This document shows, one piece after another, positions 5,616-21,728 of a DNA stretch of 64,000 bases. The position numbers and the translations under genes are program-made. Each line of letters opens with the position of its first letter. Position 1 is the stretch's first letter. Below the pieces are notes generated by a model, which ran no database searches, was not told the origin of the DNA, and was given only the letters and a program-made list of their open reading frames with translations. Location of the stretch: positions 868,001 through 932,000 of the forward strand of contig NZ_CP043051.1 of assembly GCF_008121495.1 (NCBI RefSeq), read 5' to 3'. Source of the DNA: Mediterraneibacter gnavus ATCC 29149. Its GTDB lineage: Bacteria > Bacillota > Clostridia > Lachnospirales > Lachnospiraceae.

Positions 5616-5876
5616 TTAGTTATCATTATTTGAAAACGGTCCTGGCAACGGAGTAAGGTTTGCTGCACATGCATCGCCCACGCATCCATTAAGTGGGCAA
5701 GCATTAATTCCACATGCTGCTGCTCCGCAACCATCTACTCCACAAACATTAGCTCCACATACTGCTGCTCCGCAGGCATTTCCACCACACCCTACATCAG
5801 CTAAACATCCAACGCCTCCAACACATCCGCCAGCTCTAGACTGACCATATCCATTTCCTATGTATTCGCTACCCAT
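5616..5876 (-). CDS. Cysteine-repeat peptide, candidate RiPP precursor
   Basis: 86 residues with eleven cysteines at 18, 24, 30, 35, 40, 45, 50, 55, 60, 65 and 70. From residue 30 they are exactly five apart, and the repeat unit is C-G-x-x-[ACVG] (CGAAV, CGANV, CGVDG, CGAAA, CGINA). The 17-residue N-terminal part is Gly-rich, and the tail AANLTPLPGPFSNNDN has no Cys. The AAGGAG site is clear. The gene follows an ABC exporter and a radical SAM/SPASM enzyme and precedes a terminator, which is the usual setting of a ranthipeptide/sactipeptide precursor. Many thioether rings would be possible. A structural or metal-binding Cys protein is the alternative. Confidence 0.75.
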   Translation of the reverse strand: MGSEYIGNGYGQSRAGGCVGGVGCLADVGCGGNACGAAVCGANVCGVDGCGAAACGINACPLNGCVGDACAANLTPLPGPFSNNDN

Positions 5877-5992
5877 AGCATTTCTCCTTTCTTGAATAAG
5901 TATGCTCTTCGTTATGTAAATAATATATTAGTCACAATATGTAATAACATATGCCAACCTTTAATATACCGTTTTAACTTTCATAACTTATA

Positions 5993-7639
5993 CTATACGT
6001 CCATATCTAATTTATCCAAATCTACGATTTCGTCTGATATAGATATAAAATCTGAATTATGCGATATTAAAATAATTATTTTATCTCTTTTTATTTGATT
6101 TAAGTAGACTTGTAAACATCTTATGCTCTCTTCATCTAATGCAGATGTCGGCTCATCTAAAATAATTACCGGTGGATTTTTATATAATACCCTTAATATA
6201 GAAAGTTTTTGTTTTTCTCCTCCAGACAAATTTGAATTTTTTTCTCCAATAATGGTCTCTAATTTCTTTGGCAGACTTTCTATGAATGAATACAAATTTA
6301 TCTTTTTTGCTATATAAAACAATCGCTTTAAATCTATGCTGTCTTCACTATCCATTGATACATTATATCTTACCGTATCCGCTAATAACACCGGTTCCTG
6401 TTCACATATTCCAAAACACATTTTTCTTGTTTTATAAATATCAATTTGATCTAAAGATAAAGCATCATAACATATCTCACCTGCATATTCTCTATTATAG
6501 AACCCTATAATCAAATCTACCAAAGTGCTTTTCCCTATTCCATTTTTTCCGATGATGGAATATATTTTCCCTTTTTTAAATTCTAAACTAATATCACGGA
6601 ATATACATTTCTTATCATAACAGAACATTATATTCTTTAATCTTATTTGGCTAATATCCTTTAACTCTACCCCAGCGTTTTCATCACTTTCTAAATCTAA
6701 TATCTGCTTTAATCTTGTATATGCCACTTTATTGTCCTGTATTGTCTTTGTTAATGAAAAAAAATATCTCGAAGCTTCCATCATTATACCAAAGTAACTC
6801 AGCATAATTGTTAATTGACCTACACTAAGTTTACCCCTAATAACTAATGCCCCACCCATTATAAAAATTCCTATTTGAGCTAAAGACATTATCAAAGAAT
6901 CTAAACTTGAAAATAGATACGAAATCTTTTGATATTGAAGACTTACTTTCAAAATATTTTGAAACTCTTTCTTTAACCGACTTAAAAAAGCTTCATATAT
7001 AGCCTGCATTTTTACAAAGAGAATATTATCAAATTGCTCGAATAATTTTGAAAAATAATTTGCTTGTGCTTCTGTCAAAATAAATTGTGCTTTAAAAAGG
7101 ATTTTCTTTAATATCTTATACGATAATGCATAAGCACATATTATGGCTATAAATAGCAATGTAATATTGCAACTAAATTGAACCAATACAAAAATGGACA
7201 GTAAAAGTTTTAAACTATTTATTAATATCCCTTGTACAATATTGATGCAAAATGTAATAACCTGATTAGAATCATTGTTGACTCTTTGGTTTAAATAAGC
7301 CATATTCTGCTTTTTTAAAAATGAAACTGGCAAATGTTGTATGTGGCGTATCACATCACTGTTCAAGTCATAGCCCATTTGAGTTTGCATCTTTATATAC
7401 ACTCTATTAACAATATACCCTATCAACTGATTAAAAACAAAAAGCCCGAAAAAGGCAAAGCAATATCTATAAATTTTACTGATATTATCCGCTACTATCA
7501 GATAATCAATAAAATTGCCGCTTATATAGGGAGAAATCATAGAAAACATACTACTTGTAAGACACAGCACCCCATAACAAATCACGCTATACTTATTTTT
7601 TATCAGATACTTTCCACACATTTTAAAAATGCTTGCCAT
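5993..7639 (-). CDS. ABC transporter, fused permease-ATPase (peptide exporter type)
   Basis: 548 residues: an N-terminal ABC membrane domain with about six hydrophobic segments (residues 15-290), then a nucleotide-binding domain. Walker A is IGKNGIGKSTLVDL, the signature is NLSGGEKQKLSI, Walker B is VIILDEPTSALDEES, and the H-loop is LISHNSD. No C39 peptidase domain is fused, so leader removal must come from elsewhere. It starts 22 bases after the small DUF3592-like gene and precedes the Cys-repeat peptide. It probably exports the mature product of this sub-cluster as a homodimer. Confidence 0.88.
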   Translation of the reverse strand: MASIFKMCGKYLIKNKYSVICYGVLCLTSSMFSMISPYISGNFIDYLIVADNISKIYRYCFAFFGLFVFNQLIGYIVNRVYIKMQTQMGYDLNSDVIRHIQHLPVSFLKKQNMAYLNQRVNNDSNQVITFCINIVQGILINSLKLLLSIFVLVQFSCNITLLFIAIICAYALSYKILKKILFKAQFILTEAQANYFSKLFEQFDNILFVKMQAIYEAFLSRLKKEFQNILKVSLQYQKISYLFSSLDSLIMSLAQIGIFIMGGALVIRGKLSVGQLTIMLSYFGIMMEASRYFFSLTKTIQDNKVAYTRLKQILDLESDENAGVELKDISQIRLKNIMFCYDKKCIFRDISLEFKKGKIYSIIGKNGIGKSTLVDLIIGFYNREYAGEICYDALSLDQIDIYKTRKMCFGICEQEPVLLADTVRYNVSMDSEDSIDLKRLFYIAKKINLYSFIESLPKKLETIIGEKNSNLSGGEKQKLSILRVLYKNPPVIILDEPTSALDEESIRCLQVYLNQIKRDKIIILISHNSDFISISDEIVDLDKLDMDV

Positions 7640-7661
7640 AACTTCTCCCTCAGATTACTAA

Positions 7662-7919
7662 TCACAATTTTATTCTTGCTTTTTTAGGATTATCCATAAG
7701 ATAGAATACTGATAGTTCTTCCCCCTCTTTTGGGCAACTAGTACCTACTCCAATAAATTTTCTTTTTTTATAATTAACACCAGAAACACTATATTGCACA
7801 GTAATAACCGTTGGAAAATTAGCTCCATCTAATAAATGTGTTCGAATAGGTTTTTTATTAATTTTCAACCACCATAATCTATTAGTTGAAATTACTGTTC
7901 CTTTAGTGCAAGCTTCCAT
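7662..7919 (-). CDS. Small DUF3592-like accessory protein of the RiPP locus
   Basis: 85 residues. The second half (TVQYSVSGVNYKKRKFIGVG, then CPKEGEELSVFY and DNPKKARI) has the beta-strand pattern of DUF3592-like domains: V-x-Y-x-V-x-G-x-x-Y, then a P-x-x-G-x-x-V-x-V-x-Y-x-x-x-x-P turn. The N-terminal part contains RLWWLKINKKPIRTHLLDGA. No membrane segment is clear. Small proteins of this look occur next to clostridial Cys-rich radical SAM peptide clusters. Function unknown; it might bind the precursor or the exporter. It is tightly packed between the maturase and the exporter. Confidence 0.65.
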   Translation of the reverse strand: MEACTKGTVISTNRLWWLKINKKPIRTHLLDGANFPTVITVQYSVSGVNYKKRKFIGVGTSCPKEGEELSVFYLMDNPKKARIKL

Positions 7920-7936
7920 ATATATTACCCCCAGTT

Positions 7937-9244
7937 TTATATTTTCCCCTTAAAATACCGTAACACCTGCTTTTCAAGTACGCCTTTTACTTTAAAGCAC
8001 CCTTTCGAGTGGTAACTATTAGTTTCGTTATAACTAACCACCCCACATCCACCACCACAAGCTGGTAAATATACACATTCTTTACATTCTTCATTCTCTA
8101 ATGGGTTATGAGACATCCAATCATAAAATGAATATTTTATGTTATCAATATTACCGTTCTCATTAATATTCCCCATCAAATGTTGCTCATCCCCTGCATG
8201 TTCCCAACATTTATATAATTCACCATTGGGAGTGACAGTAAACTGACTATCAGCATATAATCCACAATAAATCCATCTATGAAATGGTTTTGTATATAAA
8301 GTAAACCCTTCCATTTCAGCCTTACTCCATAATTTACTCAATACCTCTCCTACAATACTTTCACTTAAACAATTCCCTGAATATGCAGAACATGCTTGCG
8401 TAGAACCTCTAACGATTCCAAAGTCAACATTGCAATTTGTTAGACCTTTTCCATTAATTCCAAGATATTCCAAAAGTGTACTCACTTCATCCAAATTATT
8501 CTTATCCACATTGATTCTTATAACCGTATGTATATCGGCACATTTATTGTTTAGCAATTCTAAAGCCGAAATAATCTGTTCAAATGAACCTTTTCCATCC
8601 TTATATTTTCTTCTTGCATTATGCGTATCAGGCATACCATCAAGAGTTATTTGTATCTGCTGACAATTATAATTTATTAATTGGCTTACTATCTCTGCTG
8701 TTAATAAAGTTCCATTCGTTATTATCCCTGATGCAAACTCTATATTTTTTTCTGCACAGAATTTCTTTAATGCATCTAAAATATAAAATCCACATTCTAT
8801 ATTAAGTAATGGCTCTCCTCCAAACAGATTAATATACATACTTTTTGAATTTCTTGCTTTTGCTTGGTTTATCATAAACCCTATAAATCTATCTGCGGTT
8901 GCTTTATTCATTCTTGTTGTTCTACATCCTGCCCCCTCATAGCAATATATACAAGCTAAATTACATGCCCAAGTTAGCAGTACTGTTGCCGATAATACAC
9001 TATTATTGAATCTTGTTTGGTTTTGAATGTAGCTAAAATATCTATTTTCTTCAACCTGATCATCCACAATAATTCCTTTTTTCAAAAAATCATCATATAA
9101 TTCTTTATTAAGTTGATCTGGTAGATTATTATCAATTATTTCTTCAACACCTGTAGATATTTTAAAACACTCTCCTGAAAGCGTATTAAATAAAACTCTT
9201 TTATTCCCTTCTTTGATTATCAGATTAAATTTAGAAAATTTCAT
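7937..9244 (-). CDS. Radical SAM/SPASM peptide maturase A
   Basis: 435 residues. An N-terminal PqqD/RRE-like segment (residues 1-70: NLIIKEGNKRVLFNTLSGECF ... FLKKGIIVDD) probably binds a leader peptide. The radical SAM core follows with CNLACIYC holding the SAM-bound [4Fe-4S] cluster (near residues 94-101) and INLFGGEPLL. The C-terminal SPASM domain ends in CKECVYLPACGGGCG and a final Cys pair, for two auxiliary clusters. I choose the ATG at 9244 because AGGAGG is 8 bases upstream; the GTG two codons earlier is too close. It likely forms thioether links in the Cys-repeat peptide or in the 9353-9478 peptide. Confidence 0.9.
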   Translation of the reverse strand: MKFSKFNLIIKEGNKRVLFNTLSGECFKISTGVEEIIDNNLPDQLNKELYDDFLKKGIIVDDQVEENRYFSYIQNQTRFNNSVLSATVLLTWACNLACIYCYEGAGCRTTRMNKATADRFIGFMINQAKARNSKSMYINLFGGEPLLNIECGFYILDALKKFCAEKNIEFASGIITNGTLLTAEIVSQLINYNCQQIQITLDGMPDTHNARRKYKDGKGSFEQIISALELLNNKCADIHTVIRINVDKNNLDEVSTLLEYLGINGKGLTNCNVDFGIVRGSTQACSAYSGNCLSESIVGEVLSKLWSKAEMEGFTLYTKPFHRWIYCGLYADSQFTVTPNGELYKCWEHAGDEQHLMGNINENGNIDNIKYSFYDWMSHNPLENEECKECVYLPACGGGCGVVSYNETNSYHSKGCFKVKGVLEKQVLRYFKGKI

Positions 9245-9273
9245 GTACACTTCCTCCTTGTTGCCTACATAAA

Positions 9274-9302: not shown

Positions 9303-9352
9303 TTGTTACCTAAACCGTATCTCCTTAATCATCATGTCATCGTAAATCTCTA

Positions 9353-9591: not shown

Positions 9592-10851
9592 CTATCTTTC
9601 TCCCATACATTTCTTTATTTTTTCAAGATATTGAACATAATTTTCAAGTTTTTCTCTATTTTTATCCTGCTGTTTGTAATAAAATAGCACATATTTAAAC
9701 ATTGCTTTTGCAAAAATACATTTACGGTCATATTCTCCTTCCGAAGCCATACATTTCCCACCACATATATAACGATAATCGCATTCCTTACATATTTCTT
9801 TATAGTCCACACAAAATAACTGCTTTATTTCATCTTCCTTCAGCAAACAGTCTTGAGTTTTCAAAATCTTTTCAGAACTATCTGTAAGTATATTGCCCAT
9901 TCGAACCTGATTCTTTTCCATACACTGACACATATAAATATCGCCTTCCGGGAAAATTGCCATAACTTTTCCATAACCCCCACAAGAATTTCTTACCTGA
10001 ATCCTTTGGTAAAAGGCTTCTCCTATTTTTTTATTCTCGTATCCCTGTTTCAATATATATTTTGCTATCTTCAGGTTCATATCAAGATGTTCCATATCTG
10101 ATAAAATTTTAGAGTTTTCTTTCGCCCTACCCACGGATGAAACAATATTAAAAAGAACATTAATGTCATATTTAACAGCTATATCAATCAATCGATACAA
10201 ATCCACTTCATTAGTTTTCTCATAAATAAAGCTAAGAACCACCTTTATTCCAGCTTGCTGACACATCTCGATATGATTAATTAGCTGCTGCTCCTTTTCA
10301 GGCGTTCCAAACATGTGCATGGTACTGAAATCAATTTCGTCTATATATCCTTTGAGTTGTTCTGTTAATTCTCTGGTGATTGCAAGACCATTGCTCTGCA
10401 GTGTTATGGGGCAAGTCAAACCATTTCTTAATGCTTTTGCAATTTCCACAATTTGATCTTTAATCAGTGGCTCTCCACCTGTAAGAATCATTTTATGTGG
10501 TTTATTTTTCTGAAAGAACGGAATCACCTTATTCTGTATATCCTCCAGCTTAAATTCTTTTTCTGGACGAAGCTTGTCGTTTGCACTGATCGCACAAAAA
10601 TCACAATTCATATTACATTTCCTGGTTACCATCAAATATACCGTATTGATTTTCTCATGATTATTTTCTATTTCCTTTATAAATTCAGTTTGCTGCTTCC
10701 ATACAGGGAATAACTTTTCCTGAAACTCTGGTTTATCTAAATTGTCTGCAAATCTTTTACTTACCCCCAGGCAGACTTTTCCTACCGGATCAATTAAAGC
10801 CACTTTTTCTCCCTCAGTTATCTTAATAAACTCATTCATCTTACTTTCCAT
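9592..10851 (-). CDS. Radical SAM/SPASM peptide maturase B
   Basis: 419 residues from the ATG at 10851, which has AGGAG 10 bases upstream and overlaps the previous stop by 11 bases. The N-terminal 70 residues (NEFIKITEGEKVALIDPVGKV) resemble a reduced PqqD-like leader-binding domain. The core holds CNMNCDFC and MILTGGEPLI; the C-terminal SPASM region has CKECDYRYICGGKC and a late Cys. It is the last gene of a translationally coupled run (maturase D, exporter, protease, maturase C, maturase B) and stands directly before precursor 1. Confidence 0.9.
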   Translation of the reverse strand: MESKMNEFIKITEGEKVALIDPVGKVCLGVSKRFADNLDKPEFQEKLFPVWKQQTEFIKEIENNHEKINTVYLMVTRKCNMNCDFCAISANDKLRPEKEFKLEDIQNKVIPFFQKNKPHKMILTGGEPLIKDQIVEIAKALRNGLTCPITLQSNGLAITRELTEQLKGYIDEIDFSTMHMFGTPEKEQQLINHIEMCQQAGIKVVLSFIYEKTNEVDLYRLIDIAVKYDINVLFNIVSSVGRAKENSKILSDMEHLDMNLKIAKYILKQGYENKKIGEAFYQRIQVRNSCGGYGKVMAIFPEGDIYMCQCMEKNQVRMGNILTDSSEKILKTQDCLLKEDEIKQLFCVDYKEICKECDYRYICGGKCMASEGEYDRKCIFAKAMFKYVLFYYKQQDKNREKLENYVQYLEKIKKCMGER

Positions 10852-11947
10852 GACGTAAATATCTCCTTTCATATTCTTGTTTCAGCTTTTCAAGCTGTTT
10901 TTCAGTTAAGTTTGTTTGAATCAGATGATACATCCACTTCGTCACTTCACAATTCACTTTTATAGGTTGATATACATTTTGGTGAATTTCATAATTTGCC
11001 ACCTGACAGCCTCTTGTTTTACAATGTCTAATATATTGACATTCTTTACACATTGTATCCTCTTGATCCTCTAGGTAAATAATCTCTCGAATCCTCGGAA
11101 CATCCAACCCGACTTCTACAGAACCGATTTTAAATTCTGGAAGTTCCGCACAAGTATAAATCCCACCATCCGTTGTTACATAGCAAGTTGTCAAACCCGC
11201 CTTACATGCATAAAATGGACATGGAATCAGGAATGATTTCAGATATTGTTCCCAGAGATTCCAGAAGATTACTTCTTGATTTTTTTGTATATATGCTTTA
11301 TATAAGCCAAATACTTTCTCTATCTGCTCTCGTAATCCCTGTATCTGCTCATCACTCCAGGAGCAATAATAATCAATTCCTGATTCTAATTTTTTAATTC
11401 CTAAATCAATCAAAAACTGGAAACTTTCTGCATAATATTGATAGTTATTACTTGTCACAACACTGGCTACCGAAATCTGATTTCCTGTTTCCTGCTCATA
11501 TTTTCTCAATAACGGAAGATTCTTCATGATTTTTTCAAAACTTCCATTTCCTGCATAGTCTCTCCTGTTCAAATTCTGAACATACTCAGGACCATCTAAA
11601 CTCACCTTCACCTCAAATGTATTTTCCACAAAAAAATCAATTATCTCATCTGTAACTAACGTTCCATTTATCGTAGTACTGAACTTGCATATTAAGTTTG
11701 TTTCCTGGCATTTTTTCTTCGTATAATCTACAGCATCTTTTATCAGATTAAATGCCATAAGAGGTTCCCCTCCAATAAAGTAAACCATAAGTGTCCGATC
11801 ATGCTGCTTATTTGCTTCATGCACAGCAATATCGATTACCTTTTGAGCCGTTTCTAAACTCATGTATGTATTTTTCTTCTCGCCCAGGTAGCAGTAAGTA
11901 CAATTCAAATTGCACTTATTTATAATCTCTAATGACAATGTATACAT
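10841..11947 (-). CDS. Radical SAM/SPASM peptide maturase C
   Basis: 368 residues; the core begins at once, with CNLNCTYC at residues 12-19 followed by YLGEKKN, so there is no leader-binding domain of its own. GGEPLM and the SPASM Cys set (CKECQYIRHCKTRGC) are present. It is a clear paralogue of maturase E (19422-20480): both begin MYT-[LI]-x-LE-x4-CNL-x-C-x-YCYLGEK and share TDGGIY-x-CA. This matches the paralogy of the two small precursors. It follows the protease gene by 11 bases with its own AGGAGG. Confidence 0.9.
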   Translation of the reverse strand: MYTLSLEIINKCNLNCTYCYLGEKKNTYMSLETAQKVIDIAVHEANKQHDRTLMVYFIGGEPLMAFNLIKDAVDYTKKKCQETNLICKFSTTINGTLVTDEIIDFFVENTFEVKVSLDGPEYVQNLNRRDYAGNGSFEKIMKNLPLLRKYEQETGNQISVASVVTSNNYQYYAESFQFLIDLGIKKLESGIDYYCSWSDEQIQGLREQIEKVFGLYKAYIQKNQEVIFWNLWEQYLKSFLIPCPFYACKAGLTTCYVTTDGGIYTCAELPEFKIGSVEVGLDVPRIREIIYLEDQEDTMCKECQYIRHCKTRGCQVANYEIHQNVYQPIKVNCEVTKWMYHLIQTNLTEKQLEKLKQEYERRYLRHGK

Positions 11948-11958
11948 TTTCCTGCCTC

Positions 11959-12960
11959 CTAAACTGTAAATTGGTTCAAATTTCTATTTGTTTTCTTCTG
12001 GAAATCCAATCTTTCCACCATATTAAATAAGGGATATCGCAAAACAATTTCTGTCTTCGGATGTTCCATGGCATATATCCTGATTCTCTCTTTATACTCA
12101 CATATTTCCTGATAATTGTTGTGATCAATAAATAGCACCGGATACTGCTCTGCTGTTTTTTTATTTCTCAATTTTTCCATTCCACTTTCAAAAGTATCAC
12201 ATCTCTCTGTTCTCGTAACTTCCCGTATGAAACGCTGCTCTAAAGGTTCTTCTATACGGTTCGTTAGAAAATAACATTGTTTCTGCTTCAATGTTTGATA
12301 TGGATAATAGTGATTCAAAGTGTTGAGAGTAAACTGTAAAATTGCCTGTTGATACTGTTTCTCATAGTTACTCAAATAGCCTGTTACCACAGCACAGGCA
12401 AGGCTATTTCCTGGATGTAGAACCGGTATTCCTAAGTGATATAAAAAGAAAAGCCCACAAGAAAAAATTACATCATTTTTCTTTTCATCATATTGAAGCA
12501 CTTGTACCGGTTTTTCCATATCCAGGCATCTTACTCCCATTACAAAGGGGAATGAAGCTGGATAGGTTGCTTCTGCTTTCTGATTGGAATATGCAGCCAC
12601 AATCAAAATCCCCTTTTCTATAGCTGCCCTACACACTTCCTCGATTTCTTTGTGATACTTGTACTCATCTCCCATACTCATATTAATTATATCTACCTGT
12701 TCCTCTATCAGTAATTCAATACCTTCTATCATATCCAGAACCGTACTCTTTTTGTTCTTCCTCACAATGGGTACCAGAACAATTTCCGCTTCCGGGTTTT
12801 CCTTTAAAATAAAAGAACAGACATATTCCGCATGGGTAAATCCAAAGGTATCTTTACTGTATTCCTGACCATTCCACTTGCAGTCTATTTTTACAATTTT
12901 CTTATCCAGAAAAAAAGGATTATCAAAAGATCCATTGGAATCCAACACACCTATCCTCAC
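11959..12960 (-). CDS. Subtilisin-fold (S8) serine protease, candidate leader peptidase
   Basis: 333 residues with a diverged subtilase triad: Asp7 in IGVLDSN, His43 in FTHAEYVCSF, Ser186 in GNSLACAVVTGY, plus the oxyanion Asn126 in VAAYSNQ and the NMSMG strand. There is no signal peptide or propeptide, so it should act in the cytoplasm. The last 130 residues lie beyond the core and are not recognised. Its ATGA overlap with the exporter gene and its place among maturase genes fit a leader-removing protease, as in other RiPP loci. The exporters lack a C39 domain, which makes this role more likely. Confidence 0.8.
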   Translation of the reverse strand: MRIGVLDSNGSFDNPFFLDKKIVKIDCKWNGQEYSKDTFGFTHAEYVCSFILKENPEAEIVLVPIVRKNKKSTVLDMIEGIELLIEEQVDIINMSMGDEYKYHKEIEEVCRAAIEKGILIVAAYSNQKAEATYPASFPFVMGVRCLDMEKPVQVLQYDEKKNDVIFSCGLFFLYHLGIPVLHPGNSLACAVVTGYLSNYEKQYQQAILQFTLNTLNHYYPYQTLKQKQCYFLTNRIEEPLEQRFIREVTRTERCDTFESGMEKLRNKKTAEQYPVLFIDHNNYQEICEYKERIRIYAMEHPKTEIVLRYPLFNMVERLDFQKKTNRNLNQFTV

Positions 12961-14639
12961 TTTTCACTCACCTGCCTTATATGCATCTTTTCCAAATCCA
13001 CGATAATATCCGCTTCTCGCAATTCTTCCAGATTATGCGTAGAAAAAATAATAATTTTCTCCCTTGATAATTCATGCAATAATTGATAAAAACGCCCTCT
13101 TCGCTTTTCATCAATATTTGCTGTCGCTTCGTCAAAAATCAGAATTTGTGAATTTTTCAAAATATTCCTCATAATATCCAAACGTCGCATTTGTCCCTCT
13201 GAGAAATTGCATGGATCTATCTTTATCTCGGTATCCCATACCATTTCTAAAGTATGCATTTCATCATACAAATCCAAGCACTTTGCCACCATATCCATTT
13301 CTTCCTCCGAAACAGTATGTAGTAATCCCATGTTCCGTCTTACTGTATCATTGAAGAACTGTGTACGCTGCATAACATATCCTGTATTTTCCCAATAGCT
13401 GTTAATATCTAATTCCTGTAAATCTGTGTTATTTACAACTACTTTTCCCTCTGTCGGCTGATACACACCTGTTATAATTTTGAACAAAGTGCTTTTACCC
13501 TGTCCACTTTTCCCATGAACACCGTAAAGAGTGCCTTTTTCAAAATTCAAATTGAGGCGGTCAAATACCTTCTTATTTGACTCTGGATAAGAAAAACTCA
13601 TCGCTTCTAAGGAAATGTTGTTAACTGTTGTTATTTTCTTTCTGTCTCCTTGTTTCTGATCCGGATACTGAAGCAGACCATTGATATCCTTTAAGGAAAC
13701 TACGGCTGTATGGTACTCGTTAGCAAATTGTGCAATTCCAATAATAGGATTCATAATAATTGTCTGGTAATTCATCAATGCCATAATGGTACCTATGGTC
13801 ATATTCCCTTTAAATACTTCTTGTGCACCTACTACCCAAATTATGACTGTTCCAATAAACTGAATTACAAGTATCGTAGATGTATTCAATATGTACAATA
13901 AATTCTGGCGATTCGTCTCTTTTTTATATTTCTGGTTTTTCTCAAAGTACCTATCATGCACATATTGCCCACATTGAAAGAGTCTTGTAATAAACCAATT
14001 ATCATAGGTATTTGTCAGCACACTGGTGATACTATTGTATCCTTCCAGAACTTGACTACTGGTTTCCTGTATCAATTTTCCTAGTATTCTGCTGATAAAA
14101 GGAACGCTGACAAGTAAGATAATATTAGATACGGCAATTCCCTTATGGATAGAAAACATATACGGAGGAACCACTACCAGGATAACAATGTTAGAAATCA
14201 GTGTAATAATGCTTGTGATTCCACATTGTTTCACTGCTGAAACATCTTTATCCACTTTTAGCAAAATGTCACTTAGCTTTATCTTCTCAAAAAAATTTAC
14301 GCTTACTGTTGATAATTTATCTTCTACCTTTTGTCGCATATCTGCTGCTATCTCTTCCGATATGACAGCCACAACATAACGCTGTACATAATTCATAAGG
14401 TAGTTTAGAAGTAACATTCCCAGGAACACCGCCAGAAGAAGCATAAATGCAGATAAACTGGTACCATGCGGATTTCCCAAATCATCTATCACTTTTCCCT
14501 GCAGCTCTGGACGCACCAAAGAAACCCCAGCTGTTAACACAATTATCGCTATCGTTAAAATGTAATAAGGTAGTAGCTTTTTCTTAAAAGCATACTCTTT
14601 TAAAAATCCAAGATATGGGCGTTTTTTTTTACTTTTCAT
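12957..14639 (-). CDS. ABC transporter, fused permease-ATPase (RiPP exporter)
   Basis: 560 residues: six predicted membrane segments, then an ATPase domain with Walker A HGKSGQGKSTLFKI, an altered signature NFSEGQMRRLDI and Walker B ILIFDEATANIDE, then the H-loop FSTHNLEELRE. No peptidase domain is fused. It overlaps maturase D by 11 bases and the protease by 4, so it is translated as part of the same coupled operon. It probably exports the product of the precursor 1/2 type peptides and may also confer self-protection. Confidence 0.88.
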   Translation of the reverse strand: MKSKKKRPYLGFLKEYAFKKKLLPYYILTIAIIVLTAGVSLVRPELQGKVIDDLGNPHGTSLSAFMLLLAVFLGMLLLNYLMNYVQRYVVAVISEEIAADMRQKVEDKLSTVSVNFFEKIKLSDILLKVDKDVSAVKQCGITSIITLISNIVILVVVPPYMFSIHKGIAVSNIILLVSVPFISRILGKLIQETSSQVLEGYNSITSVLTNTYDNWFITRLFQCGQYVHDRYFEKNQKYKKETNRQNLLYILNTSTILVIQFIGTVIIWVVGAQEVFKGNMTIGTIMALMNYQTIIMNPIIGIAQFANEYHTAVVSLKDINGLLQYPDQKQGDRKKITTVNNISLEAMSFSYPESNKKVFDRLNLNFEKGTLYGVHGKSGQGKSTLFKIITGVYQPTEGKVVVNNTDLQELDINSYWENTGYVMQRTQFFNDTVRRNMGLLHTVSEEEMDMVAKCLDLYDEMHTLEMVWDTEIKIDPCNFSEGQMRRLDIMRNILKNSQILIFDEATANIDEKRRGRFYQLLHELSREKIIIFSTHNLEELREADIIVDLEKMHIRQVSEK

Positions 14640-15792
14640 TGCTTAACCTCTGGGCAATCTTCTCACCAAACTCACTGAATTTTAAATTTTCCTCCTGGAT
14701 ATAGTCTATATACATGCCTAATTTTTCTCTAACTATTTCAATCGGCTGCTGTAAATAATATTCAAGAATTTGTACCATTGCCTTATAAAAGATATGTTCA
14801 AAGATGCACTCTGCATCCGATGGTACATTAATCTTCCCTGTATTGACAAAATTCATATACCCACATTTCATACCATGACAAAAATCTCGGATTGTGCATC
14901 CCTTACATTTCGGATCGTTTTTATCAAAATTAGATATTGCTATTAATTTTGCCCTTCTTATGTCGATACCTTCCTTGATATTTCCTATACAATATTTTTC
15001 ATTACTTGTAAGAAATCCGCATGGGTATATCTGACCATTCGGAAATACCTTAAAGTTTCCAATTCCAGCATCGCACATGCCAAAGCAGTTCCCAAAATCA
15101 CACAGCATATTAAACATTTTTCCATCAAATTGATCAATGGTAAAAACTCTGCCCGCTGCAGCCTCATTCAAATAGTACTGCAAAATTTGTCCCACCTGCT
15201 TTTCAAATTTTACCTTCAGCTCATCAGATATTTTTAAATATACATCCATAATCATACAGATGTTATCCAGATTATGCTCATGCAAGTAACGGATATTTTC
15301 GAACATAAACGGAATGGTATTTTCTGTGACTGTCATTCTTACAGAAAAATTCAATCCACTATCCTTTACCTTCATGATATTCTCAAAAATTTTGCCATAG
15401 CAAGAAACTCCATCTTTTGCAATTCTGTTTAAATCATGGGTTTCTTTATTCCCATCAAAGCTGAGGCGTACTGTAAAATGATATTCTTTCATAAATGCAA
15501 TGAACTGATCATCCATTAGGGAACAATTGGTAGTAATATAATACTTTACTTCCCTTTCCGGATAATTATTTTTGATATAGGATACTGCTTGGTAAATTAA
15601 GTTTTTCTTCAGCAAAGGCTCACCGCCTAAAAAATCAATCAAAACTTTCCCTCTATCCCCATAATTCATAATAAACTCCAAAGAATCCACAAGTGTTTTT
15701 TCATTCAACTGATAGTGGTTATGATAGTCCTCATAGCAATATTGGCATTTTAAGTTACAATCTGTCGTTATATAAAGCGTAAAACTAAACAT
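14629..15792 (-). CDS. Radical SAM/SPASM peptide maturase D
   Basis: 387 residues. CNLKCQYC lies at residues 12-19 followed by YEDYHNHYQ, with LGGEPLL and FDGNKETHDLNR in the barrel. The SPASM part has CDAGIGNFKVFPNGQIYPCGF and CKGCTIRDFCHGMKCGYMNF plus a final Cys. It starts directly with the radical SAM core, as maturases C and E do. It is the first gene of the coupled operon maturase D - exporter - protease - maturase C - maturase B, with AAAGGAG before the ATG. Confidence 0.9.
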   Translation of the reverse strand: MFSFTLYITTDCNLKCQYCYEDYHNHYQLNEKTLVDSLEFIMNYGDRGKVLIDFLGGEPLLKKNLIYQAVSYIKNNYPEREVKYYITTNCSLMDDQFIAFMKEYHFTVRLSFDGNKETHDLNRIAKDGVSCYGKIFENIMKVKDSGLNFSVRMTVTENTIPFMFENIRYLHEHNLDNICMIMDVYLKISDELKVKFEKQVGQILQYYLNEAAAGRVFTIDQFDGKMFNMLCDFGNCFGMCDAGIGNFKVFPNGQIYPCGFLTSNEKYCIGNIKEGIDIRRAKLIAISNFDKNDPKCKGCTIRDFCHGMKCGYMNFVNTGKINVPSDAECIFEHIFYKAMVQILEYYLQQPIEIVREKLGMYIDYIQEENLKFSEFGEKIAQRLSNEK

Positions 15793-15934: not shown

Positions 15935-15938
15935 AACA

Positions 15939-16784
15939 TTATTTATAAATTCCAACTTCCTTACCAAATTTATACATATATTGTGTTACTGTCTGTATAG
16001 CATGCTGTACAGATTTTCTACCTGCACTATCATAGGAACTTTCCTTTTGAGCCTCCGCCGCAAGCCCTTTCGCATATTTTGCTGCTGAATACATCAAATC
16101 TCCTGTTGATGTATTTAATGCAGTTGTATATACGGAGGAACCAAACGAATTTCCTGCTATTGTGTAAGATTTACGGTTTTTATCAACATATTTTTCAAAA
16201 GCGGAATGATTGCTGTTTACTGCTGTCAAGTTCGATGCATGATGCGGTTCGTTTAAGTCCGATACATAATGGGTGCCTTTTCCTAAGTTTGACATAGCCA
16301 ATTGTACATCCCCTGCACGATACGCATTGACTGCTGCCTGAAAATATGACTCTGCTCTTGTCCTAGCTGTCGGAGATTTTTGACCAAGCCAGTTTTTTCC
16401 AGTATCAGGATCATAAAAGTGTCCTGCAAAAGTTCCTGCATCTGTTTCATTTCCAAGTTTATCCGGCCAGTCGGTTGCCTCCATAAGAATAGATGAGTTA
16501 AGCTCACCATTGAATGCACTATTTCCCTTATCATTGCTCAGAATTTTAAGTGTGTTTGCAACAATATACTGATGTGTATGATCTACACCACCAGACGAAA
16601 ATCTTTCATCTGGATTTGTACCATGCTCAATCGGAACTCCTTCCCCGTAAAGTTCATCAGAACCATTCGCAATATCCTGCACTTTTGTTGGAAGTTCTGG
16701 CTGTTCCGCTGCCATAACTGGCATCGTTCCCAATAAAGCCCCCACTGATACCATGGCAATAAATAGTTTCATTTTTTTTCGCAT
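15939..16784 (-). CDS. Secreted zinc-dependent phospholipase C-like enzyme
   Basis: 281 residues with a signal peptide (lysine-rich start, hydrophobic run, cleavage after PVMA-A). It matches the catalytic domain of the alpha-toxin/PlcB family. All expected metal ligands can be placed: His73 (DHTHQYIV), Asp107 (ATDW), His124 (AGHFYDPDTG), His174 and Asp178 (THYVSDL), His184 (EPHH), then His195 and Glu199 (NHSAFEKY). The membrane-binding C-terminal domain of alpha-toxin is absent. I chose the ATG with AGGAGG 7 bases upstream. It sits alone between two terminators inside the RiPP locus, with a dyad upstream that may be an operator. Confidence 0.88.
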   Translation of the reverse strand: MRKKMKLFIAMVSVGALLGTMPVMAAEQPELPTKVQDIANGSDELYGEGVPIEHGTNPDERFSSGGVDHTHQYIVANTLKILSNDKGNSAFNGELNSSILMEATDWPDKLGNETDAGTFAGHFYDPDTGKNWLGQKSPTARTRAESYFQAAVNAYRAGDVQLAMSNLGKGTHYVSDLNEPHHASNLTAVNSNHSAFEKYVDKNRKSYTIAGNSFGSSVYTTALNTSTGDLMYSAAKYAKGLAAEAQKESSYDSAGRKSVQHAIQTVTQYMYKFGKEVGIYK

Positions 16785-16814
16785 ACCCATGCCTCCTCTT
16801 CTTTTTTCTTTATC

Positions 16815-16916: not shown

Positions 16917-16922
16917 ATTATT

Positions 16923-18263
16923 CTATACTTCGATAGGAATAAGAATCGATACTGAAAACATATCATCCACCACATTAAATGATACCTCTCCCCCATATTC
17001 TCTCACAACACGCTTAATATTCTTCACTCCAAATCCATGATTTTTTTTATCTTCCTTTGATGTTTCCATTACCAAATTTCCACGTAAAGCTTCTGCCTGG
17101 CTTTCTCTCAAACTGTTTTCACATATAATAGATAGAAATCCTTTTATTTTTCTAGCCTTTAGCTGTACTAAACATTCTATTTTCGGATTATCCGCTTTCA
17201 TGAGTTGGCATTCTCGTAGTGCATTGTCGATTGTATTTGAGACAATCACACATAGATCTTCATTTTTAACTCGCTTAAATGGTGTAAAGTCTGCAAATAC
17301 TTTAAACTCAATCTTTTTTTCAAGAGCTTCCAGTCTTTTTGCATGTAATAGGTTATTAAGAAATGCATTACCTGTTTTATAATAGCTTTGATAAATGTCC
17401 AACTTACTTTCAATTCCATCTATGTATTCTTGCTTCTGTTGATAATCCACATTCCCTCTTAATGCCTCCAAATGATTTTTAATATCATGAGAAATCTTTC
17501 TAATGTTTTCCATATCATTGGATTGTTTCATATAATAATCGTATTGTAAGCTCATCTCGCTAATCTGCAAGTTCTTTTCATTCTCAATCTTTTTAACATT
17601 CAAATAATTTTCAAGAACAACAATATTACAAACAGTCCCCATAAACACCACAATACACACAGCTATAATAGTTATTATTGACCATACATTGTCAACAATC
17701 ATCCTTTTGTCGTTATATAACTGATCCGCACATATTGCCATTACTACTATATTGATAAACAACGGAATAATAATTGTAACAACGTTCAGTCCAGAAAGTA
17801 ATAATGGGATTTTATTTACAATCTTTTTTATTACTAAATTCCCAATAATAATTACTATTTCAGCAATCAAAATCATATGGATTTGATATTTTTCAGACAG
17901 ATCTGCTAATATTCCATCACTGCTATATCTATAGAAAAAAATGCAACTAATCAGTTGACCTAAAAGTATAACTGATAAGAAAACGCTCCCAAGTAATAAA
18001 CAATATTTTATACTATACTGGAATAGAAAATGTCCTATAATCATAACTATAATGATAATGCTTACATAATTATATACAATATGTAGTTCTGCTCCATTCG
18101 CCATCATTCTAAAAAGCACTAAACTCACAACGCAAAAAATTAACGAATACTTACTCCTTACAGCATTATACCTTCTACTTTTTCTTTCACCGAGCATGAG
18201 ATATAATATTAATAAAATATTGAGTACAGAAAATATGTTTTTTAATATAACTTGTCCGTGCAC
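16923..18263 (-). CDS. AgrC-like sensor histidine kinase (GHKL type)
   Basis: 446 residues. Residues 8-215 hold about six or seven hydrophobic segments, the sensor of this class. A helix then leads to the phosphoacceptor motif ISHDIKNH (His259), and the GHKL ATPase has SNTIDNALREC and GFGVKNIKRVVREYGG. The start is a GTG with GGGGAGGAG upstream. It is followed after a terminator by the phospholipase gene and preceded by its response regulator (1 base apart). The AgrC class usually senses a peptide, but no AgrB/AgrD pair is present in this window. Confidence 0.88.
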   Translation of the reverse strand: MHGQVILKNIFSVLNILLILYLMLGERKSRRYNAVRSKYSLIFCVVSLVLFRMMANGAELHIVYNYVSIIIIVMIIGHFLFQYSIKYCLLLGSVFLSVILLGQLISCIFFYRYSSDGILADLSEKYQIHMILIAEIVIIIGNLVIKKIVNKIPLLLSGLNVVTIIIPLFINIVVMAICADQLYNDKRMIVDNVWSIITIIAVCIVVFMGTVCNIVVLENYLNVKKIENEKNLQISEMSLQYDYYMKQSNDMENIRKISHDIKNHLEALRGNVDYQQKQEYIDGIESKLDIYQSYYKTGNAFLNNLLHAKRLEALEKKIEFKVFADFTPFKRVKNEDLCVIVSNTIDNALRECQLMKADNPKIECLVQLKARKIKGFLSIICENSLRESQAEALRGNLVMETSKEDKKNHGFGVKNIKRVVREYGGEVSFNVVDDMFSVSILIPIEV

Positions 18264-18264
18264 C

Positions 18265-18984
18265 TTAAACAGCTCCTCCCCGTTCCGCCATTTTCTTCAT
18301 AAGGTTCTGTTTTCTGGAACGTGTAATATATATTTTGTTTCCAGAATAAAGTGTTACAGTGAGATCATGTAATGATTCTATGCAATCTACATTGACAATA
18401 ATTCCGTTATGGCAACGAACAAAGAAGAACTGTTCTAATCGTTCTTCCAAATCTTTCATCTTAAAATATCCTGCTTCTTTCTTTCCACTTCTTAAATGAA
18501 ACAGTACTTTCCGATTTATTGTTTCAATATATTCGATATCTGAAAGAAATAGTTTAAAATAACCTTTTTCATTTTTTACTGCAATATATCTCTGTTCATA
18601 TGTATTCAGTTTTCGTAGTGCCCGGTTCATTTCACAATTTATTTGGACTTGTGTAATCGGCTTCGTAATAAAATTTTGCACGTCATACTTATAACCAGCT
18701 CCCAGGAATTCATTATGCGAAGACACAAAAAGAACAATTGACTTTTCATCATGCTTTCTTATAATATCCACTAATTCCATACCATCCATAGCTGGCATTT
18801 CTATATCTAAAAAGAAAATCTGGAATTCTTCTTTTAAAGATTCCATTAACTGCAATGGCTTAGTATATTTTTTTATTATAAAATCCTGCTCATTTTTCTT
18901 TTCATAAACTTTTAACATTTTTTCTATTGTATCTATAAAACATTTTTCGTCATCACATATCGCTATTTTTATCACTTTCATCAC
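18265..18984 (-). CDS. AgrA-like response regulator with LytTR DNA-binding domain
   Basis: 239 residues. Receiver: acidic pair CDDE, phosphoacceptor in FFLDIEMPAMDG, and conserved Lys in FITKPI. The C-terminal LytTR domain runs from about residue 140, with VKNEKGYFKLFLSDIEYIE, RCHNGIIVNVDCIE and a basic end ITRSRKQNLMKKM. Its start overlaps the XRE gene by 32 bases, and it precedes the kinase by one base, so XRE, regulator and kinase form one operon. Likely targets are LytTR-type repeats near the locus promoters, for example at 20762-20789. Confidence 0.88.
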   Translation of the reverse strand: MMKVIKIAICDDEKCFIDTIEKMLKVYEKKNEQDFIIKKYTKPLQLMESLKEEFQIFFLDIEMPAMDGMELVDIIRKHDEKSIVLFVSSHNEFLGAGYKYDVQNFITKPITQVQINCEMNRALRKLNTYEQRYIAVKNEKGYFKLFLSDIEYIETINRKVLFHLRSGKKEAGYFKMKDLEERLEQFFFVRCHNGIIVNVDCIESLHDLTVTLYSGNKIYITRSRKQNLMKKMAERGGAV

Positions 18985-19315
18985 CCATTTGTCTTTTAAA
19001 CATATTTTCTACTTGTGCTTCACTTAATCTTCTGCCAAGCGTTAGCAAAGTGGTCTTATTTGCCTCATCGAGTTGCTTATATATTTCCCACAATTCTTCT
19101 CCCTGTGAACTAAACAAATTATTCTGTTCTTCATAAATAAGAATGTCAATAGGAACATGGAATATATCTGCCAATTTTATCAAAAGATTACAAGGTATGT
19201 TTTCAATCCCCGCCTTCTCAATCCTACTGATTGTTTGCTGACTGGTTCCCAATTTTTCGCTTAATTCGCTTTGAGAAATTCCTAATTCCTTACGTTTCTT
19301 CCTAATTATGTTCAT
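18953..19315 (-). CDS. XRE-family regulator upstream of the Agr-like pair
   Basis: About 120 residues from the ATG that starts MNIIRKKRKELGISQ. The helix-turn-helix continues LSEKLGTSQQTISRIEKAG, and the tail has EIYKQLDEANKTTLLTLGRRLS. The layout is the same as in the XRE gene at 4516-4854, so the two may be paralogues acting on related operators. Upstream frame extends 22 codons but without a ribosome site; the chosen start has only a weak GGTGA. It overlaps the LytTR regulator gene. Confidence 0.85.
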   Translation of the reverse strand: MNIIRKKRKELGISQSELSEKLGTSQQTISRIEKAGIENIPCNLLIKLADIFHVPIDILIYEEQNNLFSSQGEELWEIYKQLDEANKTTLLTLGRRLSEAQVENMFKRQMGDESDKNSDM

Positions 19316-19421
19316 TTTCATCACCACTTTTACTATCATTTTAATCAAATACCAACATATCAAGTATTTATGATGTCTCATAATAAAAATAACGCATTTT
19401 TACTAATTTATCAAGTTTATT

Positions 19422-20480
19422 TTATCCTATTTTTTTATCATACTTATTCCATAAAGTTATTTTTTTCTTTTCAAAATAGCACATATCTGGATTATATCCA
19501 TTTATCTGATTACTGTATGATAGATTGTTCATAATACATTTACAGCTCTGACATTTGGCATGTATATTACACTTTAAACAAGCATTACTTTGGTTTGCTA
19601 ATTCCCGATATTCTTTTATTTTTCTTACGGAGAAACCTTTCTCCACATCTCCTAAACACCCACTAGACTCTAAATTAGCTGCACATCCATAAATCCCACC
19701 ATCTGTTTTCACATATATTTGGATTAACCCCACTCCACAGAATCCGGAATTCACGTATTCTTCTCCATATTTTTTTAAATCCAATATTGGTGCCCACAAA
19801 AATGCTTGTCCGTTCTCTTTTTTCTTTATATAATAACATAAAATATTTTCCCATTCCTGCCCCAATTTATCTAATTGCTCAACAGTCCACCTATGTGTAA
19901 CATCTATAGAAGAATCTACGATACTAAAATGTAAATCTTCTACTAGATGTTTAACAGACTTAAAAGCTTCCCAGTAATTATTCTGAGTAACTACATGAGC
20001 GACCTGAATATATTGTTTTGTTCTCTCTTCGTACTCTCTAAAGTAACTTATGTTCTGCATTATATTCCTATAACTTCCTATACCATGTTTTGTTTTGCGA
20101 TTTCTGTCATGAGTTTCCATTGTTCCATCTATGCTCAATTTTAAATGAACTCTATTATTTACTAACCATTCCAAAACTTCATTATTCATAATTGTACCAT
20201 TCGTGGTAATAGAATAAGAAACCGCAATTGTTCGTTTCGCAGCCTCCTCTTCAATATATTCGACCAATTTCTGTAAAAGTGCAAAACTAATTAACGCTTC
20301 TCCTCCTACAAAATCAACCCACAATCTTTTATCCTTATGCTTTTCTACATTTAGAAAAGCTATTTCTAGCCCTTTACAGGCAATTTCTTCGGGCATTATC
20401 TGATTTGTTTTCTCTCCAAGATAGCAATAGTCGCATCGTAAATTACAAATTTGATTTACCTCTAAAGTAATCGTATACAT
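19422..20480 (-). CDS. Radical SAM/SPASM peptide maturase E
   Basis: 352 residues from the ATG at 20480, which has GGAGG 6 bases upstream. The longer frame to 20507 would run into the attenuator hairpin. CNLRCDYC lies at residues 12-19 followed by YLGEKTN; the usual GGEP is GGEALI here. The SPASM region has TDGGIYGCAANLESSGCLGD and CLKCNIHAKCQSCKC with a final CYFEKKK. Maturase C is its closest relative in the window. It follows precursor 2 directly, so precursor 2 is the expected substrate. Confidence 0.9.
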   Translation of the reverse strand: MYTITLEVNQICNLRCDYCYLGEKTNQIMPEEIACKGLEIAFLNVEKHKDKRLWVDFVGGEALISFALLQKLVEYIEEEAAKRTIAVSYSITTNGTIMNNEVLEWLVNNRVHLKLSIDGTMETHDRNRKTKHGIGSYRNIMQNISYFREYEERTKQYIQVAHVVTQNNYWEAFKSVKHLVEDLHFSIVDSSIDVTHRWTVEQLDKLGQEWENILCYYIKKKENGQAFLWAPILDLKKYGEEYVNSGFCGVGLIQIYVKTDGGIYGCAANLESSGCLGDVEKGFSVRKIKEYRELANQSNACLKCNIHAKCQSCKCIMNNLSYSNQINGYNPDMCYFEKKKITLWNKYDKKIG

Positions 20481-20491
20481 CTCTTTCCTCC

Positions 20492-20539
20492 AAAAAAGTA
20501 ACCGCACAGCCTATCCATTTTTCAGATAGGTATGCGGTT
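20492..20539 (-). terminator. Attenuator hairpin between precursor 2 and maturase E
   Basis: Stem AACCGCA-TA-CCTATC / GATAGG-CTG-TGCGGTT followed on the minus strand by ACTTTTTT, lying between the precursor stop and the maturase ribosome site. A leaky terminator here would give many precursor transcripts and few maturase transcripts, a common arrangement in RiPP operons (inference). Confidence 0.85.
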
Positions 20540-20546
20540 CTCTAAT

Positions 20547-20702: not shown

Positions 20703-20740
20703 ATCCTTTCTCTCCTTTCAATATCAGTAAGTATGTCCAA

Positions 20741-20769
20741 ACTATACTCTGCTTTTTCCTATATATCAA
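20741..20769 (-). promoter_or_regulatory. Promoter of precursor 2
   Basis: TTGATA (-35, 20764-20769) and TATAGT (-10, 20741-20746) with an exact 17-base spacer, 39 bases upstream of the start codon. The -35 is part of the downstream copy of a LytTR-like repeat, as in AgrA-type activated promoters. Confidence 0.75.
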
Positions 20770-20789
20770 CATTCCATGTCTAAATCGAC
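20762..20789 (-). promoter_or_regulatory. Candidate LytTR binding repeats
   Basis: Two direct copies, GTCGATTTA (20781-20789) and GTTGATATA (20762-20770), start 19 bases apart on the minus strand, about two helical turns. The downstream copy overlaps the -35 box. Tandem half-sites on one DNA face are what LytTR regulators bind. Two LytTR genes flank the region. The match is by spacing and similarity of the two copies only. Confidence 0.45.
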
Positions 20790-20815
20790 TTTTTTTTTTG
20801 CATAAAATATTCAAT

Positions 20816-21544
20816 CTATCTATTTCCTACATAAATAGCTAATTCTTTCATAAATTCTTCTTTTTTATATTTACTCACCGGAATCTCTTTTAACTGTTGA
20901 TTCTTATCCTTAACGAGTACACTATCATTCTTTAAACCTTCTACATAATCAAAATTTACTATGTAGCTGTTATGACATCTGAAGAATAATTTTCGGCTTA
21001 ATCTTTCCTCCAGTTCCCTCATCCTTTGGCTACTTTGTATTTCTCCCTTATTCGTATGCAGAATCAATAGTTTGTTCCTTACCTGTATGTAGATTATATC
21101 TGAAAGCTGTAGCGTAATCAATCCATCTTGGCACTTCAAAAATAATTTTTCCTCTGCACACAACAATTTCTTTTTATATACTTTATTTAAAAGGTGTTCT
21201 ACCTTTTTATATAATAATGGCTTTGATAAGAAATCCTCTGCATCCACTTCAAAACCTTTCCCTGCATTTGATATTGTGTAAAAGGATGTACAAAATACTA
21301 TTACAACATTTTCATCTATACTTCTAATTCGTTCTGCTGTTTCAAACCCATCTAATTCCGGCATAGAAACATCCAAAAAAATTATGTCAAACTTTCTCTT
21401 TTGAAAGTTTAATAACAATTGTGAACCACTTCCGTATGCAGTAATTTTAACCTTTATATGGTTTTCATTACCATAACGTATTATATAGTTCTCCATTTTT
21501 TTGTTATAGTCTGTAATGTCATCACACAATCCTACTTTAATCAA
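20816..21544 (-). CDS. Second LytTR-type response regulator
   Basis: 242 residues. Receiver with LCDDITDYN, phosphoacceptor in IIFLDVSMPELDG and Lys in FLSKPLL. The C-terminal LytTR domain has LKCQDGLITLQLSDIIYIQV, RCHNSYIVNFDYVEGL and VSKYKKEEFM. The start is TTG at 21544 with AGGGAA upstream, one base after the preceding small gene. No kinase is beside it, so it may share the AgrC-like kinase at 16923-18263. It stands immediately before the precursor 2 promoter, the obvious target. Confidence 0.85.
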   Translation of the reverse strand: MIKVGLCDDITDYNKKMENYIIRYGNENHIKVKITAYGSGSQLLLNFQKRKFDIIFLDVSMPELDGFETAERIRSIDENVVIVFCTSFYTISNAGKGFEVDAEDFLSKPLLYKKVEHLLNKVYKKKLLCAEEKLFLKCQDGLITLQLSDIIYIQVRNKLLILHTNKGEIQSSQRMRELEERLSRKLFFRCHNSYIVNFDYVEGLKNDSVLVKDKNQQLKEIPVSKYKKEEFMKELAIYVGNR

Positions 21545-21545
21545 C

Positions 21546-21728
21546 CTATTCCCTGCCTTTCTGATGTGTCAATAATCGTTGAATCAAAATATCTATTGTT
21601 AATTTATTTTCCTCACAAAGATTTCTATATTTTTCTAATAATGCCCATTCTTTCTCCGTTATATTTTGTTTCTCATCATGATTTCTGTTTATTTCATCTA
21701 AACCCTTTTTATTCTGTTCCCTTCCCAT
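21546..21728 (-). CDS. Small charged protein co-transcribed with the LytTR regulator
   Basis: 60 residues with AAGGAGG before the ATG. Highly charged and probably helical (ITEKEWALLEKYRNLCEENKLTIDILIQRLL), with one Cys and no membrane segment. It is unlike a RiPP precursor, because there is no separable leader and core. It lies one base from the LytTR gene, so it may modulate that regulator. The IS copy begins only 25 bases upstream of its start. Confidence 0.6.
   Translation of the reverse strand: MGREQNKKGLDEINRNHDEKQNITEKEWALLEKYRNLCEENKLTIDILIQRLLTHQKGRE

Follow-up and report, generated by a model that had tools for sequence, protein, structure and literature searches.

The window analysed here, a stretch of 64,000 nucleotides from the genome of Mediterraneibacter gnavus ATCC 29149 (bases 868001-932000; the genome, 3.55 Mb in size, is a single contig), contains, on what is likely mobile DNA, two neighbouring gene sets for ribosomally synthesized and post-translationally modified peptides (RiPPs), namely a Cef cassette and a unit with four radical S-adenosylmethionine (rSAM) enzymes, both of which are predicted to yield small cross-linked peptides. 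The explanation that best accounts for the whole, and that is held here to be probable, is that of a Cef cassette lying beside a separate four-rSAM set predicted to cross-link, trim, and export two peptides with three cysteines each. While the Cef part is already modelled, the presumably mobile four-rSAM RiPP unit is covered by none of the models searched, and no description was recognised as this unit among the open-licence PubMed Central (PMC) papers retrieved, judged by title and the start of the abstract, subscription papers lying outside that set.

Five genes of the locus match Radical_SAM (PF04055) above the Pfam cut-off, all of them on the minus strand (Table 1), and each of the encoded proteins carries a CxxxCxxC motif and 9-11 further cysteines in its C-terminal part. 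As the whole genome gives 28 Radical_SAM matches, 27 of them over the cut-off, the five found within about 12 kb compare with an expectation of 0.09 and a Poisson chance of 6e-8 per place, a figure that excludes scatter only, since the genes of one operon are not independent. An earlier note on this DNA had termed all five enzymes SPASM-type. With the Pfam SPASM model, this label suits rSAM A and rSAM C, whereas CefB stays just under the cut-off (20.5 versus 21.5 bits) and rSAMs B and D are not among the matches. The accompanying genes named in that note were found again with Pfam, i.e. two ABC exporters devoid of a peptidase domain, an S8 protease, a GHKL kinase, two LytTR regulators and an XRE regulator, the DUF3592-like protein being a marginal match only; the three candidate cysteine peptides, CefA (86 residues, 11 cysteines), PepB (41 residues) and PepC (51 residues), are likewise encoded in the locus. 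To this list a gene for a zinc-dependent phospholipase C (PLC) has to be added, and the locus reaches beyond the span then described, as far as metK. The four-rSAM unit reads, in order, LytTR, pepC, rSAM D, XRE, LytTR, GHKL kinase, PLC, rSAM C, ABC, S8 protease, rSAM B, rSAM A, and pepB, and the genes for C, ABC2, S8, B and A overlap or abut (gaps of -11, -4, +11 and -32 bases). The Cef cassette comprises cefB, the DUF3592-like gene, an ABC gene, and cefA.

The separation of these two sets rests on family membership and on distribution. CefB and CefA both exceed the cut-offs of the NCBIfam models NF038107 and NF038108, respectively, and are thereby members of these families. Among 58 genomes of the genus, only the own genome exceeds the CefB cut-off, and among ten unit-holding genomes searched, a cefB match above 33% identity was found only in the near-identical locus of Blautia massiliensis (L048), so far the sole place besides the window where Cef stands next to the four-rSAM unit. 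The name CefB was not met in the open-licence PMC papers retrieved. That all five rSAM enzymes, CefB included, would form one pathway acting on one shared peptide set could be argued from their common strand, the short gaps, and the mere 102 bases separating pepB from cefB. Nevertheless, cefB and cefA match families of their own, each set has a separate ABC exporter, and the unit occurs without Cef in loci of other species; because of this last point, the single pathway was rejected and is regarded as highly improbable. Of the two readings proposed in the earlier note, that of several modifications on one peptide family is supported for enzymes A-D, which form a conserved unit with one precursor family, but not for CefB, which belongs to the separate, already modelled cassette; that of merged loci sharing export and control is supported as to the merger, the CefB cassette being joined on here, but not as to shared export, each gene run having its own ABC exporter. 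As for its concern that other genomes might carry mere fragments of the set, A-D recur together and CefB does not.

Conservation of the four-rSAM unit was followed by a profile search of genome contigs with an rSAM A alignment, which yielded at least nine loci with at least 33% identity (L048-L056), and by a survey of 397 family genomes, which added two more (L151 in G401, L152 in G113), giving 11 other loci. The unit genes of L048 are 99-100% identical to those of the window. The core C-ABC2-S8-B-A is complete in 8 of the 11, namely L048, L049 (B. hansenii), L050 with L160 (two contigs of B. schinkii), L051, L052, L054 (Lachnotalea glycerini), L055 (Lachnospiraceae 3-1), and L151; it is incomplete in L053 (without B and C), in L056 (the contig starts just before B), and in the divergent L152, where the A-like gene is in two pieces. 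The regulatory arm LytTR2-pepC-D-XRE-LytTR1-GHKL is present in five (L048/L165; L049, whose contig starts just before pepC; L160; L159, from the genome of L051; L161/L055), and PLC in six (L048, L049, L160, L052, L055, and L151, where it lies downstream); L054 and L151 have the unit without the arm. The locus L055/L161 contains five rSAM genes, A-E, without Cef. In a tree of 38 rows, from which both own_ rows were left out, A (11 rows), B (9), C (11, the extra enzyme E of Lachnospiraceae 3-1 being counted with C) and D (6) each form one clade, with supports of 100/100, 99/95, 100/96 and 100/98, respectively, B and D being sister clades. The four are thus separate enzymes of old origin that have been passed on jointly.

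The unit is sparsely distributed: at E<=1e-30, rSAM A was detected in 3 of the 397 family genomes, the own one included, and in 1 of 398 phylum genomes, again the own. The S8 protease was also tried as a search handle and dropped, as its 42 matches in 200 family genomes, apart from its own, are partial, at most 41% identical, and were taken to be other subtilases. In seven related loci, genes for an ABC ATPase and an FtsX permease of roughly 800 residues stand beside the precursors (L050; L051, tested with Pfam; L052 in part; L054; L055; L056, permease only; L151), and these pumps are presumably BceAB-like; in the window and L048, the Cef cassette occupies their place. Besides, Lachnospiraceae 3-1 has a divergent second cluster (L162, G853:C22:196001-214000) with C-, D- and A-like rSAMs, S8 protease, FtsX permease, LytTR, GHKL and AgrB. 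A second small cluster of B. hansenii (L164, G847:C23:16001-25897) combines C- and B-like rSAMs with two pepB-type peptides and adjoins genes whose starts appear almost the same as those found left of the window, at genome C1:829290-833803. The rSAM A of L055 is matched, at 99.0% identity, by a protein cluster named for Enterococcus faecium (P0164), which stands for 1000 contigs.

The precursors of the four-rSAM unit share the motif LxxEEVNxY...CGx5CxxDC. Across 26 aligned precursors from the window and seven other loci, E, Y, C, C, D, and C are invariant, the last four being built in, as nearly all 26 were collected with a matching pattern; one set of pepB matches in the relatives came from tblastn alone, without the pattern. 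The window and L048 have a single pepB-type gene, while L050 has 4, L051 6, L052 2, L054 2, L055 3, L056 6, and L151 2; none was found in L053, and L049 is left out of this count, its contig ending behind A. None of the 26 matches an NCBIfam RiPP model at E<=10, the sole match being a chance one to a lectin (0.091). A profile search recovered 304 homologues at E<=1e-3; among the 120 listed, CxnCxxDC is present in 117 and the longer motif in 110, their names, where given, are 'hypothetical protein', and two entries (P0211, P0212) are double precursors. With regard to pepC, 9 of the 10 species pairs compared show a closer likeness in its core than in rSAM D, the exception being the window versus the L159 genome (76% for the core, 85% for rSAM D). 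Between pepC and rSAM D, all five loci folded have a stable hairpin with a U-rich end, as would be expected for a precursor made in excess over its enzyme.

Regarding the enzymes, rSAM A has no NCBIfam family (best 65.8 bits, cut-off 625), and its model (mean predicted local distance difference test score, pLDDT, of 83.4) fits SuiB, anSME, SkfB, CteB, and TigE. All 19 sequences compared keep its eight C-terminal cysteines (positions 297-385), a number sufficient for two auxiliary clusters, and its N-terminal beta3-alpha domain, an extension of a kind that B, C and D lack, could be a RiPP recognition element (RRE). The nearest solved relative of rSAM B is CteB (5wgg). Neither the PapB model NF047865 (B 199.2, C 205.9, D 191.1 bits; cut-off 340) nor the QhpD-type model TIGR03906 (B 147.4, C 117.6, D 130.9 bits; cut-off 453) is reached by these three enzymes, and the S8 protease attains 98.2 bits with the QhpE model NF049966, whose cut-off is 165. 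The putative Asp/His/Ser triad of the S8 protease is kept in 9 of 9 sequences and the putative zinc ligands of PLC, a His/Asp/Glu pattern, in 6 of 6 with the window included, both as judged by eye against the residues of subtilisin and B. cereus PLC.

In the light of these data, a course of events can be proposed. Through its possible leader-binding domain, rSAM A would offer the leader, ELxxEEVNVY, to B and C, two PapB/QhpD-like enzymes that would form thioether cross-links from the three cysteines, Cys-Asp links being proposed because CxxDC is invariant; rSAM D would act likewise on pepC. The S8 protease would then cut the leader off inside the cell, as QhpE does, and ABC2 would export the mature product. 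In the Qhp system, as described in an excerpt of PMC7876137, QhpD makes Cys-to-Asp/Glu thioethers, QhpE removes the leader in the cytoplasm, and QhpF exports the product. Such an order of events on short peptides is suggested because the same kinds of parts occur here in overlapping genes, and, by analogy, Qhp-like cross-linking, intracellular leader removal by S8 and ABC export under Agr-like control is deemed the most likely working. The three-cysteine peptides could also be sactipeptides, with cysteine linked to an alpha-carbon, or be modified by C-C linkage or epimerization, the remaining logic being unchanged: rSAM A fits structurally the C-C linking SuiB as well as SkfB and CteB, and four enzymes may perform more than one chemistry. 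As B, C, and D are nearest in NCBIfam to the PapB ranthipeptide maturase model, and as all 26 precursors keep the Asp of CxxDC, this other chemistry is considered possible but doubtful, and Cys-Asp thioethers are preferred.

Control of the locus would be exerted by the GHKL/LytTR pair, sensing an exported peptide, for which pepC is the best candidate, and switching the locus on. A peptide-sensing role is proposed because, in each of four comparisons, conservation of the GHKL protein is lower in its sensor half than in its kinase half, and because an AgrB gene adjoins the homologous LytTR/GHKL pair in the divergent L162; among the unit genes scanned with Pfam, there is no AgrB. In the aligned upstream regions, no LytTR binding repeats were callable, the promoter scan was uninformative (94 sites versus 94.1 expected), and the terminator scan gave 7 versus 5.8 expected. 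In terms of function, the product of the four-rSAM unit is likely a new antibiotic or signal, as predicted from its genes, and the fact that relatives carry ABC/FtsX pumps suggests that the pepB-type products are antimicrobial. One may instead propose that the unit makes a signal only, pepB and pepC being cross-linked pheromones of an Agr-like circuit that controls PLC. The presence of the GHKL/LytTR pair and PLC within the unit, AgrB in L162 and the lack of an ABC/FtsX pump in the window's unit would agree with this, as would the link of SCIFF-derived ranthipeptides to quorum sensing (reference cited in an excerpt of PMC11352710). Conversely, up to six diverse pepB-type genes per locus and pumps in seven related loci fit weapons better, and the unit exists without its arm in L054 and L151, which makes a signal-only unit rather improbable. 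At its most ambitious, the prediction would be that of a new mobile RiPP class, in which four co-inherited rSAMs build multiply cross-linked three-cysteine peptides and the conserved pepC is an rSAM-made pheromone that replaces the Agr thiolactone, is read by GHKL/LytTR, and launches a variable pepB-type arsenal and the secreted PLC, with element-borne metK feeding the enzymes; taken as a whole, this chain is thought unlikely.

The mobility of the locus, also put forward in the earlier note, is supported by several lines of evidence. A tyrosine integrase gene (35619-36827) adjoins guaA, and to the left of the window, at distances of about 49 and 34 kb from its start, lie a VirD4-type and a TraG/VirB4-type gene, respectively. 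Still further left there is another integrase, 76% identical to the first. About 50 bases behind each integrase stands an identical 13-mer (C1:805505 and C1:904877, C1 being the genome contig), found nowhere else in the genome. Because the copy behind guaA recurs once, behind the other integrase, these 13-mers are taken to be the likely termini of an integrated element of 99 kb next to guaA, and the left integrase is assigned to an adjacent element. By comparison, an exact 14-mer spanning the stop codon of guaA has no second copy in the genome, and the last 16 bases, with up to 3 mismatches allowed, gave only two poor sites in 144 kb. Seven of the 28 rSAM matches of the genome fall between the two 13-mers, and ParM-, sortase-, DnaG-, RecD2- and YqaJ-like genes lie right of the unit. 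Among the matches listed for 57 other genomes of the genus, the best one to rSAM B has 29% identity (E 5e-30, compared to 3e-256 for its own gene), and 12.2 kb of the right-hand element body are 98.9% identical in L165; behind this shared body, the integrases differ (window 35619-36827 and L165:865-2079, 27% over 204 residues). The unit of Lachnospiraceae 3-1 shares with the own genome a flanking stretch of 1.5 kb at 82% and one of 5.0 kb (metK, hydrolase, resolvase) at 97.2%, while the unit proteins span 46%-91% identity (rSAM C and ABC2 90-91%; S8, B and A 49-59%), a mosaic from which it follows that parts of the unit were exchanged by recombination.

Other observations concern the same DNA. 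The 97% block shared with Lachnospiraceae 3-1 ends sharply at GTAAATAAAGG (genome C1:867399-867411), a sequence that within 144 kb has no occurrence other than this one, in reversed orientation, and one directly after the integrase of the window. Carriage by plasmids was rejected, no tblastn match being found in plasmids for rSAM A (E<=1e-20), S8 (E<=1e-10) or ABC2 (E<=1e-100), as was carriage by phages, without a match for rSAM A (E<=1e-20); viral contigs gave 15 weak relatives with 25-37% identity. An IS701-family transposase gene (21788-22996) adjoins the unit, and its insertion looks recent because L165 lacks it at the corresponding position and an open reading frame (ORF) with nearly the same N-terminus exists at genome 799902-801110. 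Left of the window, between the 13-mers, a LanM-like gene (LANC_like, DUF4135), an rSAM gene accompanied by genes for an S41 peptidase and ABC proteins, and one more rSAM gene were noticed, so that the element seems to carry several RiPP clusters. In the conjugation-gene region, a surface-type protein of 1327 residues (C1:837037-841020, L148) combines thioester, SpaA-type and T-Q ester-bond domains.

The metK gene carried on the element may support the supply of SAM, and its feeding of the rSAMs is an attractive but unproven idea. Its product is 83% and 52% identical to the two other SAM synthetases of the genome. It lies beside the unit in L048 and L055, where the copy of the L055 genome is open over 396 codons; in L050 and L051 it is present in fragments. 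Between metK and the four-rSAM unit lies a terminator-like hairpin.

Table 1. Features of the locus (window positions) and apparent RiPP-type regions of the element (contig positions, C1).
Feature	Position	Strand	Basis and remarks
60-residue ORF preceding LytTR2	21546-21728		
LytTR2 response regulator	20816..21544	-	Pfam LytTR and Response_reg; same place in L165, L159, L160, L161
pepC, three-Cys precursor of 51 residues	20547..20702	-	Orthologues before rSAM D in L049, L159, L160, L161
Probable attenuator, a hairpin with a U-rich tail in the gap from pepC to rSAM D	20495..20543	-	z -4.4 to -7.5 in the loci folded
rSAM D	19422..20507	-	PF04055 35.8 bits; own clade, sister to B; likelier start is the ATG at 20480
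XRE regulator	18953..19381	-	HTH_3
LytTR1 response regulator	18265..18984	-	Pfam LytTR
GHKL sensor kinase, N-terminal half hydrophobic	16923..18263	-	HATPase_c_5; hydropathy
Zinc-dependent PLC, secreted-type, catalytic domain only	15939..16790	-	PF00882; B. cereus PLC best solved match, E 1e-15
rSAM C	14629..15792	-	PF04055 64 bits, SPASM 23 bits; clade C
ABC2 exporter with membrane and ATPase domains, lacking a peptidase domain	12957..14639	-	Pfam; 11-base overlap with C
S8 subtilisin-like protease, QhpE-like, no signal peptide evident	11959..12960	-	PF00082; QhpE model 98 bits, cut-off 165
rSAM B	10841..11947	-	PF04055 64 bits; nearest solved chain 5wgg (CteB); clade B
rSAM A, N-terminal beta3-alpha extension of about 75 residues	9592..10872	-	Possible leader-binding RRE
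pepB, three-Cys precursor of 41 residues	9353..9478	-	
cefB, maturase of the Cef cassette	7937..9250	-	NF038107 660.5 bits, cut-off 600
DUF3592-like protein, Cef cassette	7662..7919	-	PF12158 22.2 bits, cut-off 25.3
ABC1, Cef cassette exporter lacking a peptidase domain	5993..7639	-	Pfam
cefA, Cys-every-fifth precursor, 11 Cys in 86 residues	5616..5876	-	NF038108 63.2 bits, cut-off 30
XRE regulator; related units have it at their downstream end	4516..4878	-	RstR-like, under cut-off; 87% L051, 59% L055, 53% L053
metK, SAM synthetase	3110..4300	-	One of three in the genome
Apparent RiPP-type regions of the element (L147, L148)	C1:811129-813063, 826233-828621, 843767-844909		

Radical SAM RiPP clusters mostly carry one or two maturases, bottromycin and polytheonamide being exceptions with more. 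Four distinct, separately old rSAMs kept with one precursor family thus make a division of labour directly testable. The unit is spread over several Lachnospiraceae, with a 99%-identical relative of the L055 rSAM A under E. faecium, and its precursors are still named 'hypothetical protein'. Moreover, the zinc PLC inside the cluster and the accessory metK beside it raise questions on how the peptides are used and how the enzymes are fuelled.

At that point, the locus can be set against known systems. Its left part (5616-9250) is a member of the Cef cassettes defined by the NCBIfam CefA and CefB families, but is tied to the four-rSAM unit by position only. With Agr systems, the unit shares a GHKL kinase with a hydrophobic sensor half and LytTR regulators; it differs in that no AgrB or AgrD is recognised in it and that an rSAM-linked peptide gene precedes the regulators. 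The PapB ranthipeptide maturases provide the best whole-enzyme NCBIfam match of B, C, and D, although all three are below the cut-off of that model, and the CxxDC of the unit's precursors differs from the CX3D motif of PapB-type substrates. In the case of thuricin CD, for which the abstract of PMC12093266 describes the rSAM enzymes TrnC and TrnD as acting as a complex, the likeness lies in more than one rSAM acting together on more than one precursor, whereas that system has two enzymes and a sactipeptide product, and the abstract mentions no S8 or Qhp-like protease. Finally, compared to Qhp, which according to the excerpt of PMC7876137 has one enzyme subunit as substrate and one rSAM, the unit has several short peptides and four rSAMs, none of its proteins is above the QhpD or QhpE cut-off, and no QhpA, B, or C gene was recognised in it. 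Nevertheless, the two have in common a SPASM-type rSAM, a cytoplasmic S8 leader protease and an ABC exporter beside the substrate gene, and this combination, found in the window with genes for rSAM, S8 protease and exporter next to that of a precursor, keeps its order in 8 of the 11 other loci.

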